Below are positions 55,561-60,137 of a stretch of DNA of 64,000 bases, one piece after another. Positions within the stretch are counted from its first letter, which is position 1; each line of letters begins with the position of its first letter. The DNA lies in contig NZ_NEGG01000004.1 of NCBI RefSeq assembly GCF_002135295.1, positions 141,994 through 205,993 of the forward strand. Reading direction: 5' to 3'. The notes under the pieces are model-generated. The model made no database searches. It was given only the letters and a program-made list of their open reading frames with translations, and had not been told where the DNA came from. A program made the translations under genes and the position numbers. This stretch comes from Acinetobacter sp. ANC 5054. Lineage in GTDB: Bacteria > Pseudomonadota > Gammaproteobacteria > Pseudomonadales > Moraxellaceae.

Positions 55561-58254
55561 GTGAGTACTCGTTTTATGACATCAGCTGAAATTCGCGAAG
55601 CTTTTTTAAGCTACTTTGAATCGCAAGGGCATACACGTGTCGCGTCGAGTTCTCTGGTACCTGCCAACGATCCAACATTATTGTTCACCAACGCAGGTAT
55701 GAACCAGTTCAAAGACTGTTTCTTAGGTTTAGAAAAGCGTGACTACGTACGTGCAACATCATCACAAAAATGCGTACGTGCAGGCGGTAAACACAACGAC
55801 TTAGATAACGTTGGTTATACAGCACGTCACCACACATTCTTTGAAATGTTGGGTAACTTCTCATTTGGTGATTACTTCAAACGTGATGCCATTAAATTCG
55901 CATGGGACTTTTTAACTGGCGAAGAATGGTTAGCGCTTCCTAAAGATAAACTCTATGCCACTGTTTATCATACCGATGACGAAGCTTTTGATATCTGGAA
56001 CAAAGAAATTGGACTAGATGCTTCACGTATCATCCGTATTGGTGACAACAAAGGCGAAAAATACGCATCAGATAACTTCTGGGCAATGGGCGATACAGGT
56101 CCTTGCGGTCCATGTTCTGAAATTTTCTTTGACCATGGCGACCATATTTGGGGCGGCTTACCGGGCACTCCTGAAGAAGATGGCGACCGTTTCATTGAAA
56201 TTTGGAACAACGTATTCATGCAGTTCAACCGTACTGCTGATGGCGTACTGCATGAACTTCCAGCACCATCTGTAGATACAGGTATGGGCTTAGAACGTAT
56301 TTCAGCAGTTTTACAACATGTAAACTCAAACTACGAAATTGACCTATTCCAAAACTTATTGAAAGATGCGGCAGAAATTATCGGTTTAGATACCACTGAT
56401 CTTGAAGCTGCTGCTAAAGAAGCTGGTAAGCCAGTTGAATACCCTGCTTCACTTAAAGTTGTTGCTGACCACGCGCGTTCATGTTGTTTCTTGATTGCTG
56501 ACGGTGTAAACCCTTCAAATGAAGGTCGTGGTTATGTACTTCGTCGTATTATCCGTCGCGCAGTACGTCACGGTAACAAATTAGGTGCGACTGGTTCATT
56601 CTTCCATAAAATGCTTCAACCGCTAATTAACGTGATGGGTGCTGCATATCCTGAACTTGAAGCACAAAAAGCGCGTATCGAAGCACAGCTTTTGAAAGAA
56701 GAAGAACAATTCGCTAAAACTTTAGAGCAAGGTTTGAAATTGCTTGAAGGCGAATTGGCTCAACTGAAAGGTTCAGTGATTCCGGGCGAAACTGTATTTA
56801 AACTCTATGACACTTACGGCTTCCCGACTGACTTAACTGCTGATATTGCTCGTGAACGTGATTTAACCATTGATGAAGCTGGCTTTGAAGTTGAAATGGC
56901 TGCTCAACGTCAACGTGCACGTGATGCAGGTAAATTCGCTGTCGACTACAACTCAATTGTGAAAGTTGAAGGCGAAACTCAATTTGATGGCTATGACGCA
57001 ACTCAAGGTCAAGGTCAAATTGTTGCGATCTATAAAGATGGCGAACAAGTTAACGAAGTATTTGAAGGCGACGAAGCACTGATCGTATTGAACCAAACTC
57101 CTTTCTATGCAGAAAGCGGTGGTCAGGTTGGTGATACAGGTCTATTCAAAAACGATACAGGTATTTTTGAAGTTCAAGATACCAAAAAATCTGGTGGCGC
57201 TTTTGTACACCAAGGTATCGTGACGATGGGTAACCTTAAAGCCGCTCAATCTGTAGAAGCGACTGTTAAAGCAGACATCCGTGATGCAACTGCACGCAAC
57301 CACTCTGCGACTCACCTTCTACACGCTGCCCTTCGCCAAGTTTTGGGTGCACACGTTCAGCAAAAAGGTTCATTGGTTGCTAGCGAACTGTTACGTTTTG
57401 ACTTTGCCAATGATCAACCTGTGTCATTTGAACAGCTTCAAGAAATTGAACGTATTGTCAATGCTGAAGTGATTGCCAACACAGCGGTTTCAACTGAACT
57501 TTTAGACATCGATGCTGCCAAAGAAAAAGGCGCAATGATGTTGTTCGGTGAGAAATACGGTGATGAAGTACGTGTACTTTCAATGGGTACAAGCAAAGAC
57601 GATAAAAACTTCTCTATCGAACTTTGTGGTGGTATTCACGTAAAACGTACAGGTGATATCGGCCTATTCAAGATCACTTCTGAAGGTGGTGTTGCTGCGG
57701 GCGTTCGTCGTATTGAAGCGGTTACAGGTACGAAAGCGGTTGAAGCTGCTCAAAAAGCTGATCGTGACATTCACGCAATCAACGATTTGCTCAAAGCACA
57801 GAAAGATCAAACGTTAGAAAAAGTGGAAGCACTTTCTCACACTGCATCTAGCCTGCAAAAACAAATTGAACAATTGAACCAAAAATTAGCGAGCTTCCAA
57901 GCGGCTGAGCTTTTAGGTCAAGTTCAAGAGATTGCAGGTCGTCAAACTTTAATCACGACTGTGAACAATGTAGATGCGAAATCACTTCGCAACCTACATG
58001 ACGGTGTGAAATCTAAGTTAGACAATGCTGTGATTGTGATTGCTGCTGTAGATGCTGACAAAGTGAGCTTGATTGCTTCAGTTGCTAAAGAATATACAGC
58101 AACTGTAAAAGCAGGTGACATCATCAAACACCTTGGTCAAGAACTGGGTGGTAAAGGTGGTGGTAAACCTGATATGGCTCAAGGTGGTGCACCATATAGC
58201 GACAAACTTGAAGCTGTAATGACTGACCTTGTTGCATGGTTAGCTGCAAAATAA
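55561..58254 (+). CDS. alaS: Alanyl-tRNA synthetase
   Basis: The start is GTG 55561, with AGGAG 9 bases upstream; the frame is open to 55519, and an ATG at 55576 is the other option. The 897-residue enzyme has the class II catalytic core ([34 protein letters not shown], read in parts; [27 protein letters not shown]). The editing domain has [12 protein letters not shown], with the zinc-binding HxxxH, and [13 protein letters not shown]. The C-terminal oligomerisation part has [14 protein letters not shown]. It precedes lysC and csrA, the order also seen in Pseudomonas. Confidence 0.97.
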
Positions 58255-58270
58255 GACCAAAAGTCCTATC

Positions 58271-58546
58271 GCTGAAGGTCTAGCGCCTTCAGCACATCAA
58301 CACCATTCAGCAGTGTGTTTTTTAATGCTGGATCCTACTGAATGGATGTTGAGCGTGTAAGCGCAAACTCAAGCATCATATGGAAACTACAGTTAAATGC
58401 TGGCCTATGATGAAGATGGAGTCTAAAAGGCTGAGTTTATTTAAACTCCCTGCGGACACAAAGTATCAATTGAATTGCACCGCTGGATTACACAGCATGC
58501 TGTTCAGGAGCTACGTGGTATATTAAAACCGCACAATTATAGCGGT
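58271..58546 (+). ncRNA. Structured intergenic RNA region between alaS and lysC (candidate lysC leader)
   Basis: The 350-base gap holds several good stems. GCTGAAGG/CCTTCAGC (58271-58293, 7-base loop). TCAACACCATTCAG with CTGAATGGATGTTGA (58297-58352, 14 pairs with one bulge, then two more pairs past a mismatch). GAGTTTA/TAAACTC (58433-58448). CCTGCGG/CCGCTGG with one T-T mismatch (58449-58486). ACCGC/GCGGT (58528-58546). No T-run marks any of them as a plain terminator. The lysine-riboswitch motifs (AGAGGxGC and others) are not seen. It could be a leader of lysC or a small RNA made from the alaS 3' region. Confidence 0.5.
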
Positions 58547-58604
58547 CTTAAAATATGTGTAAGTGCTTTAAGTCTTAGGACTTATTTACTTGGTAAGGAT
58601 AGTT

Positions 58605-59885
58605 ATGGCATTAATCGTTCAAAAATATGGCGGTACCTCAATGGGTACTCCCGAGCGCATTTTAAATGTTGCTCGTCGTGTAAAGCGTTGGCATGATCAC
58701 GGTCACAAAGTTGTGGTTGTTGTATCGGCGATGAGTGGCGAAACCAATCGTCTACTTGCTTTAGCGAAAGCCATTACCGAAACCCCTGATCCACGCGAAT
58801 TAGACCAAATGGTGTCTACAGGTGAACAGGTAACGATTTCTATGTTAGCAATGGCACTAAACTCTATTGGTGTTGAAGCTAAATCATTAACAGGTCGTCA
58901 AGTTGGTATTAAAACCGACAGCGCATTTACCAAAGCACGTATTGAAGCAATTGACACTGATGTCATGACTTCACATCTCGATGCAGGCCGTGTGATTGTC
59001 GTTGCTGGTTTCCAAGGCTTTGACGCTGAAGGCAATACAACTACACTTGGTCGTGGTGGTTCAGACACTTCAGGTGTTGCACTTGCTGCTGCACTTAAAG
59101 CAGATGAATGCCAAATTTACACAGATGTGGACGGTGTTTATACCACTGACCCACGTGTCGCTCCAAAAGCAAAAAAAGTTGATCGTATTTCTTTTGAAGA
59201 AATGCTTGAAATGGCATCACTTGGTTCAAAAGTACTTCAAATTCGCTCTGTCGAATTTGCAGGTAAATACCAAGTGCCTTTACGCGTATTATCAAGTTTT
59301 GATAATGACGATGATGGCGCATTCGACGAAAATTTCAAACAAAACGTCGGAACACTAATCACCACTGAAGCGGAAGACAACATGGAACAACCAATTATCT
59401 CAGGTATCGCGTTTAACCGTGACGAAGCAAAATTAACTATTTTAGGTGTTCCTGACAAACCAGGAATTGCCTCAAATATCTTGTCACCTATTGGCGATGC
59501 AAACGTTGAAGTGGATATGATTATCCAAAACGTTGAAGAAGACGGTACAACTGATTTCACGTTTACTGTAAACCGTGGTGAATTACCAAAAGCAAAAGCA
59601 ATTTTAGAAGCTACTGCTCAAGAAATTGGTGCGCGTGAAGTCGCTACACGCTCTGACATCGTTAAAGTGTCAATCGTAGGTGTTGGTATGCGTTCACACG
59701 CAGGTGTTGCAAGCAAAATGTTTACTGCCCTTGCGAAAGAAGGTATCAACATTCTCATGATCTCAACCTCTGAAATTAAAATTTCAGTAATCATCGATGA
59801 AAAATACCTAGAGCTTGCTGTACGTGCTCTACACACTGCATTTGGTTTGGATCGCGAATCAGGCGAATCTAGCGTTCGCGCATAA
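58605..59885 (+). CDS. lysC: Aspartate kinase (lysine-sensitive type with two ACT domains)
   Basis: This enzyme phosphorylates aspartate at the entry to lysine, threonine and methionine synthesis. The 426-residue protein starts at the ATG at 58605 (AAGGA 6 bases upstream). The kinase domain has ALIVQKYGGTSMG, VVSAMSGETNRL, TTLGRGGSDTSGVALAAAL and the TDVDGVYTTDPRV loop. Two ACT domains follow (from about 263, ILGVPDKPGIASNILSPI; and from about 345, VSIVGVGMRSHAGVASKMF), as in feedback-inhibited Pseudomonas-type enzymes. An internal start giving a separate beta subunit is possible, as known in the family. csrA follows after a terminator. Confidence 0.97.
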   Translation: MALIVQKYGGTSMGTPERILNVARRVKRWHDHGHKVVVVVSAMSGETNRLLALAKAITETPDPRELDQMVSTGEQVTISMLAMALNSIGVEAKSLTGRQVGIKTDSAFTKARIEAIDTDVMTSHLDAGRVIVVAGFQGFDAEGNTTTLGRGGSDTSGVALAAALKADECQIYTDVDGVYTTDPRVAPKAKKVDRISFEEMLEMASLGSKVLQIRSVEFAGKYQVPLRVLSSFDNDDDGAFDENFKQNVGTLITTEAEDNMEQPIISGIAFNRDEAKLTILGVPDKPGIASNILSPIGDANVEVDMIIQNVEEDGTTDFTFTVNRGELPKAKAILEATAQEIGAREVATRSDIVKVSIVGVGMRSHAGVASKMFTALAKEGINILMISTSEIKISVIIDEKYLELAVRALHTAFGLDRESGESSVRA

Positions 59886-59950
59886 TTTAACCATGTTCTG
59901 TGTCAAAATTTGTCATTGTTAGACAGATTTTGAAAAACATCGTAAAAATA

Positions 59951-59990
59951 CAGAGCCACTATAGTTTTTTTTATAGTGGCTCTGTTATAT
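59951..59990 (+). terminator. Strong terminator of lysC
   Basis: CAGAGCCACTATA/TATAGTGGCTCTG, a 13-bp perfect stem with an 8-base T-rich loop, 65 bases after the stop. Confidence 0.85.
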
Positions 59991-60137
59991 TAACTTTGAG
60001 GATTTTGAAAATATAATAGATTTGTATCTGCTACAACGATTGTCACAGATACGCTGTTATTATTTTTTTGCTTTTACAGGTTATGATTTTTACATAACAG
60101 ATCAATTGCAGGTTTTGCATTTTGCAAGGAGATAAAC

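Follow-up and report, generated by a model that had tools for sequence, protein, structure and literature searches.

A conserved RNA element of Acinetobacter that probably forms the 5' leader of lysC and appears to derive from a small protein gene

The alaS and lysC genes of Acinetobacter sp. ANC 5054 are separated by 350 bases (58255 to 58604, plus strand) of the window, by which we mean the whole stretch of 64,000 nucleotides that was analyzed; alaS ends at 58254, and the ATG of lysC stands at 58605. An initial annotation of this DNA placed a structured RNA in the gap and offered two readings of it, a new leader that controls lysC or a small RNA, which raises the question of what such an RNA does and where it came from. 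We consider it probable that the gap RNA is a cis-acting 5' leader of lysC (aspartokinase; 58605 to 59885, plus strand; the presumed target) that arose within the 3' half of a gene for a small secreted-type protein and outlived that gene in most of its carriers.

The gap, which would hold the whole leader, is predicted to fold strongly on its plus strand (-108.4 kcal/mol for the RNA), in agreement with the structured 350-base gap first described; 100 dinucleotide-shuffled versions gave -85.5 ± 5.0 kcal/mol, none of them as low (z -4.56). Since folding of the minus strand is no weaker (z -5.65), the strand of the gap RNA is not fixed by energy alone. At least five stems had been reported, and the folds contain at least seven, including the imperfect 14- to 16-bp hairpin noted at 58297 to 58352, which was found at exactly these coordinates (hairpin B). 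It is flanked on the plus strand by the 9-bp hairpin A (58271 to 58293) and by helix C, in which CATCATA (58374 to 58380) pairs with TATGATG (58406 to 58412); hairpins A and B lie 5' of the core common to 22 species. When the sequences were compared by reading, the arms of both hairpins differed in L002 and L003 and yet still paired; for hairpin B, CCATTCAG/CTGAATGG in L001 compared to GGTTTAAG/CTTAAACC in L002 amounts to four pairs altered on both sides. GGAGT (58418 to 58422) and ACTCC (58445 to 58449), which had been suggested to pair alternatively, are both present, but the pairing is not conserved and is probably incidental, because L002 and L003, the closest relatives, lack ACTCC at the corresponding position. 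No lysine riboswitch core had been visible by eye, and RF00168 had no match either at the gathering cutoff in the whole window, where Rfam returned tRNA only, or at an E value of ≤10 in 58200 to 58700; no credible Rfam match of any kind was obtained in the gap even at that threshold. Full-text literature searches, as far as titles and the openings of abstracts go, returned no title on this element. Absent from Rfam and from those search results, the putative leader family appears to be new, and its origin is unusual and traceable.

DNA similarity to the gap was detected in 22 genomes of the genus, including that of the window; in 3 of them the similarity spans the whole gap, and in the others it covers the 52 to 150 bases nearest to lysC. 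A further, 23rd match (G148) covered 25 bases and lay away from lysC. A covariance model built on the 3' core (R1) was used to scan 175 genomes of the genus and 299 genomes of the family. R1 recovered the same 22 of the 175 genus genomes, with a single copy in each and E values below 1e-16, and all 22 confident matches end at the lysC ATG, with position and orientation fixed. The conserved element makes up the last ∼190 bases of the gap in the window. Weak matches in the genus were G129 (E value of 0.0068), which on inspection was the small protein gene described below, without lysC, and G109 (E value of 0.45), which was set aside as weak. Among the 299 family genomes, R1 found no confident match in any other genus, and the sole match outside Acinetobacter (G184; E value of 0.62) was likewise set aside as weak. 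An exact 20-mer at the end of the element occurred in 13 records, all from Acinetobacter, in a collection of 84,980 species genomes from which records close to the window were possibly excluded.

Read 5' to 3' on the plus strand, the element opens with hairpin H0 (58421 to 58457), which has a GUC...GAC base and is supported by the phylogenetic null and by the shuffles described below. It continues with the conserved AAGUAUC (58461 to 58467), the candidate 5' strand of a helix P1 whose candidate partner (58598 to 58604) lies at the Shine-Dalgarno sequence, and with hairpin P2 (58470 to 58507), which is supported by the window's own fold and by the family statistics; its arms are misaligned for the window in alignment A4, and P2 of the window was therefore taken from its own fold. 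Hairpin P3 (58512 to 58561) combines a near-invariant base (UACGUGGUAUNUU/AAAUAUGUGUA) with a variable tip, and within its span lies TGGTATATT (58516 to 58524), of which TGGTATNT is invariant in 22 of 22 sequences in A4. Hairpin P4 (58562 to 58590), with AAGUG(CUUU)AAGUC...GACUUAUUUACUU, is conserved in sequence. A candidate helix P5 (UUUAC/GUAAG; 58585 to 58597), whose pairing is conserved and nearly invariant, is mutually exclusive with outer P4, and the lysC Shine-Dalgarno sequence UAAGGA, assigned from the sequence, occupies 58594 to 58599. With a CsrA-bound leader in mind, in which GGA would be expected to recur in loops and at the Shine-Dalgarno sequence, GGA was counted by hand in A4; it is found at the Shine-Dalgarno sequence in 22 of 22 species and upstream, before H0, in 14 of 22. 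Besides the P2 and P3 stems, the leader sequence CGUGGUAU is named as a target for mutation.

Covariation was assessed on A4, a structure-blind MAFFT alignment of 22 sequences from which the consensus structure was also derived (RNAalifold with RIBOSUM-type scoring). In A4, 87.4% of the pair cells held standard pairs, compared to 82% when the letters of the 3' arms were shuffled, and sliding the partners by 1 to 3 columns lowered the proportion to 28 to 45% in A4 and A3; double changes occurred in 78 cells, versus 30 in shuffles. Related sequences can mimic covariation, and the helices were therefore also compared to a phylogenetic null of 200 simulations, in which each column evolved on the tree with its own substitution count. 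On A4, H0, P2, and P3 each exceeded all simulations (0 of 200 as high) in pairing, double changes, and the G statistic, and P2 and P3 did so again (0 of 200) on the model-fitted alignment A6, which does not include H0. P4, whose inner stem is paired in every sequence (22 of 22), stood out in pairing only (2 and 8 of 200 as high) and is too invariant for a covariation test. An R-scape-like test of single pairs, of low power and run with our own simulated null on the 22-row MAFFT alignment, gave 0 of 17,766 pairs at an E value of <0.05 (best, 0.10). With default scoring, RNAalifold returned P3 and P4 only (A2) or P4 only (A3 and A4); H0 and P2 require other scoring settings. A shuffle test that needs no alignment of the arms, although its segment borders come from the same consensus fold and mildly favor it, showed that H0 folds better than its own shuffles (P < 0.05) in 22 of 22 species, P2 in 19, and the P3 tip in 18, with pairwise identity averaging 41%, 39%, and 47%, respectively; whole P3 and P4 each did so in 13 of 22 species, and 9 of 176 random alaS segments did so as a control. 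The initial annotation had made its case depend on compensatory base changes across species, and these were found at the level of whole helices: H0, P2, and P3 are conserved as RNA secondary structures that covary across species.

Sequence conservation was measured in the 16 carriers without a readable open reading frame (ORF; see below), among which L020, with its weak remnant, was counted. In these species, four-fold degenerate sites of alaS were 50% identical, compared to 85 to 98% for four core blocks, namely, CGUGGUAUNUU (93%), AAUAUGUGUAAGUG (86%), P4 (85%), and the 20 columns before the ATG, including the Shine-Dalgarno sequence (97.6%). Two flanking blocks that also look conserved were lower (GACACAAAGUAUC, 68%, and GAGCUACGUGG, 70%; UAUC alone, 85%), and the hairpin arms were 33 to 40% identical. 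This is the pattern of an RNA in which the core is fixed and the stems are free to vary.

Part of this core could also be read as DNA. The sequence TGGTATATT at 58516 to 58524 resembles an extended -10 promoter element, the motif of which is TGnTATAAT. If lysC were transcribed from there (TGGTATNTT), transcription would start near 58531, and most stems would fall outside the leader, leaving P4 alone inside a 5' untranslated region (UTR) of ∼75 nt; the core would then mainly be a lysC promoter plus a conserved translation start region, and the upstream hairpins would belong to the 3' UTR of alaS. The presence of TGGTATNT, itself similar to TGnTATAAT, in 22 of 22 species fits this explanation, as does its absence from both ORF copies that lie away from lysC (which read TGGTGTATT and TGGCACATT instead). 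It is weakened by the covariation of H0, P2, and P3 as RNA helices, by P3 spanning the supposed start site, and by a simple consensus scan that detected no promoter on the plus strand, an extended -10 element without a -35 element being outside the model of that scan; taken together, we regard a mainly DNA-level function as unlikely. Because H0, P2, and P3 covary, transcription would also come from upstream.

The tandem hairpins of variable sequence might instead stabilize or protect the 3' end of the alaS mRNA or the 5' end of the lysC mRNA, or yield a processed small RNA, without any regulated switch, and the lack of support for a Shine-Dalgarno gate (see below) would agree with that. A conserved core that extends up to the Shine-Dalgarno sequence exceeds what stability needs, and we consider this explanation improbable. 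A separate small RNA, the second reading of the initial annotation, has less support than a leader, as the consensus scan of 58100 to 58700 contained neither a promoter-like site on the plus strand nor a terminator-like site. The first reading, a new leader, is the best supported, both by the compensatory changes and by the single copy directly before lysC in 22 of 22 carriers; that it controls lysC itself is what we infer.

A cis-acting leader of lysC might work as follows. Transcription would enter from upstream, by read-through from alaS or from an unmapped promoter. Three hairpins of variable sequence (H0, P2, and the P3 tip) would hold in position a conserved core, made up of P4, the base of P3, the linker, and the Shine-Dalgarno sequence. 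This core probably interacts with a ligand, a protein, or the ribosome, and lysC translation would be tuned by alternative pairings in the region of P3, P4, P5, and the Shine-Dalgarno sequence. Two more specific schemes, either of which could serve as the expression platform of a riboswitch, were considered and are not supported in their general form. Sequestration of the Shine-Dalgarno sequence by P1 would involve conserved sequence, but P1 pairing had no covariation support (85 of 200 simulations as high in both A4 and A6), and accessibility is not lowered, with an unpaired probability of the Shine-Dalgarno sequence of 0.42 compared to 0.37 with shuffled upstream sequence (0.44 in short leaders); we keep it as a possibility. 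A bistable switch between P3b plus P5 and outer P4, which are mutually exclusive, is not a general feature, since P3b plus P5 is worse by a median of 4.3 kcal/mol and comes within 1.6 kcal/mol in only 6 of the 22 species (L001, L002, L003, L005, L012, and L015, with the window among the six).

A point missed by the initial annotation is that the sequence of the leader in the window appears to derive from a protein-coding gene. The long gap of L004, L005, and L011 consists of an intact ORF of 132 to 133 codons with a signal peptide-like start, and its dN/dS values among these three (0.14 to 0.17, at dS of 1.05 to 1.18) argue for a real protein. Broken pieces of the ORF are recognizable in L007 (G036) and L014 (G008), with weaker remnants in L009 (G112) and L020 (G151). 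In the window (G000), the small ORF is gone, with no match in an ORF scan or a protein search, and the RNA core is kept; by alignments and the ORF scan, 58415 to 58580 on the plus strand is the homologue of the 3' half of the ORF (WSPKG to LRGILK to ICVSALSR), and the RNA core CUACGUGGUAU...AAUAUGUGUAAGUG would be the former code for LRGI...ICVSA. Residual similarity in a decaying pseudogene is a very improbable account of the region, for all its clear homology to the intact ORF and the existence of broken copies, since the four core blocks lie far above the identity of alaS four-fold sites in the 16 species with a dead ORF, and the arms diverge but remain paired.

Intact relatives of the ORF are also found 3' of alaS in genomes in which lysC lies elsewhere, directly in G129 and with one ORF between in G148. 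In these two copies, the H0 and P3 segments folded no better than shuffles, and P2 folded better only in G129 (P = 0.018; segments chosen by hand). Since the hairpins are mostly absent there, the protein probably predates the RNA structure, which would belong to the lysC-adjacent copies. At codons for the same amino acid, the RNA half was more conserved than the other half in the three lysC-adjacent genes (Fisher P values of 0.055, 0.088, and 0.0036, which are not independent), and no such excess was seen in comparisons with G129 or G148; this extra conservation is suggestive only. The RNA would have arisen in the 3' half of the secreted-type protein gene between alaS and lysC and would have been kept after the gene decayed, as in the species of the window. 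We put forward, tentatively and at slightly less than even confidence, that a regulator evolved inside a bacterial protein gene, served for a time as code and RNA element together, and finally took the place of the gene; each stage (the protein by itself, protein plus RNA, and RNA by itself) would still be represented by living species.

Database comparisons of the small protein gave little. Pfam returned one match below the curated cutoff for the L004 protein (E value of 0.089) and none for those of L005 and L011, NCBIfam had no match, and the best hit of a PDB sequence search with the protein alignment had an E value of 0.039. A Foldseek search with an AlphaFold model (pLDDT of 73.5) returned nothing at an E value of ≤0.001, the best match being the lysozyme inhibitor PliG (E value of 0.006; TM score of 0.36 to 0.40), and the model shows only a weak beta-sandwich resemblance. 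A plasmid or phage origin was considered and dropped, as tblastn found no match. A family-wide protein search identified G220, from another genus (E value of 1.4e-19), and G029 (E value of 7.5e-4). Members of this Moraxellaceae family of small secreted-type proteins occur in L164 (1471 to 1881), L165 (1471 to 1890), and L182 (1489 to 1905); in two Acinetobacter genomes the gene follows alaS, and in another genus its neighbor is a murC-like ORF.

Most of the loci measured carry a different sequence before lysC. We fetched 123 loci (22 by DNA similarity, 100 picked by hand from the list of LysC matches, and L023), and L023, L035, L063, L096, L103, and L109 yielded no gap. The remaining 117 comprised 22 long gaps (291 to 494 bases) and 95 short ones (93 of 60 to 68 bases, plus 129 and 142), so that 95 of 117 loci have no long element; these counts are not rates, as the long loci were chosen by similarity and the others by hand. 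LysC matches were present in 173 genomes, 51 of which lay outside the gap measurement (the sequence upstream of lysC was inspected by eye in G129 and G148, and the rest were scanned with R1 only). The 93 short gaps (among L024 to L123, e.g., L036 and L050; 64 distinct sequences) have a common consensus hairpin, UUUUGUGUAACUGACC...GGUCAUGGCUUAUAUGGAA, whose upper stem shows compensatory changes, and as far as these alignments tell, the short gap is a second, different lysC leader. Its lower stem would join the Shine-Dalgarno side with UUUUGUGU; it is nearly invariant and was formed only by L036 and L050 among nine sequences folded singly. Both leaders contain UGUGUAASUG, followed by a hairpin, ∼50 bases before the ATG (49 in the window, at 58556 to 58565, and ∼53 in short leaders), and because of this shared motif, the short leader may descend from the same ORF as a deletion product.

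On both the AlaS tree (118 rows) and the lysC tree (42 genomes), long leaders are scattered among short ones, and L015 and L037, sisters on both trees, have one long leader and one short. Recombination at the alaS-lysC spot would be the simplest account; repeated loss seems less likely, given that a single sequence type is common to the 93 short leaders. Two observations concern neighboring sequences. Strong hairpins occur just 3' of alaS in L013, L016, L015, L019, and L021, followed in L013 and L016 by a short T run and then a TATAAA-like sequence, which suggests a separate lysC promoter in those species. Between lysC and csrA in the window stands a long inverted repeat whose loop is a T run (AGAGCCACTATAG...TATAGTGGCTCT; 59935 to 60000); it is perhaps a terminator, so that csrA may have its own transcript.

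The element is an undescribed candidate control point at which the lysine and threonine pathways begin in Acinetobacter, and two different leaders appear to have been exchanged before one gene, lysC. The origin of new regulatory RNAs is largely unknown, and here a single genus lets species with the protein alone, with protein plus RNA, and with RNA alone be compared.

Among known systems, the lysine riboswitch (RF00168) is likewise a structured leader before the aspartokinase gene lysC, but the present element does not match it even at an E value of ≤10 and has a different architecture and core. The short Acinetobacter leader (60 to 68 nt) precedes the same gene, with a hairpin between UGUGUAASUG and the Shine-Dalgarno sequence at a similar distance from the ATG, but lacks H0, P2, and P3 and has another Shine-Dalgarno region (AUGGAACAACU). 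Orphan gammaproteobacterial leader motifs in Rfam have a conserved core, variable covarying hairpins, one adjacent gene, and a narrow taxonomic range. The layout, the single gene, and the narrow range are all found again here, whereas no Rfam family matches and the core overlaps relic coding sequence. Xist and other RNAs descend from former protein genes, and the Acinetobacter element would similarly be a functional RNA from a dead coding gene; unlike Xist, it would be a bacterial cis-acting leader, with species that retain the intact protein surviving as intermediates.
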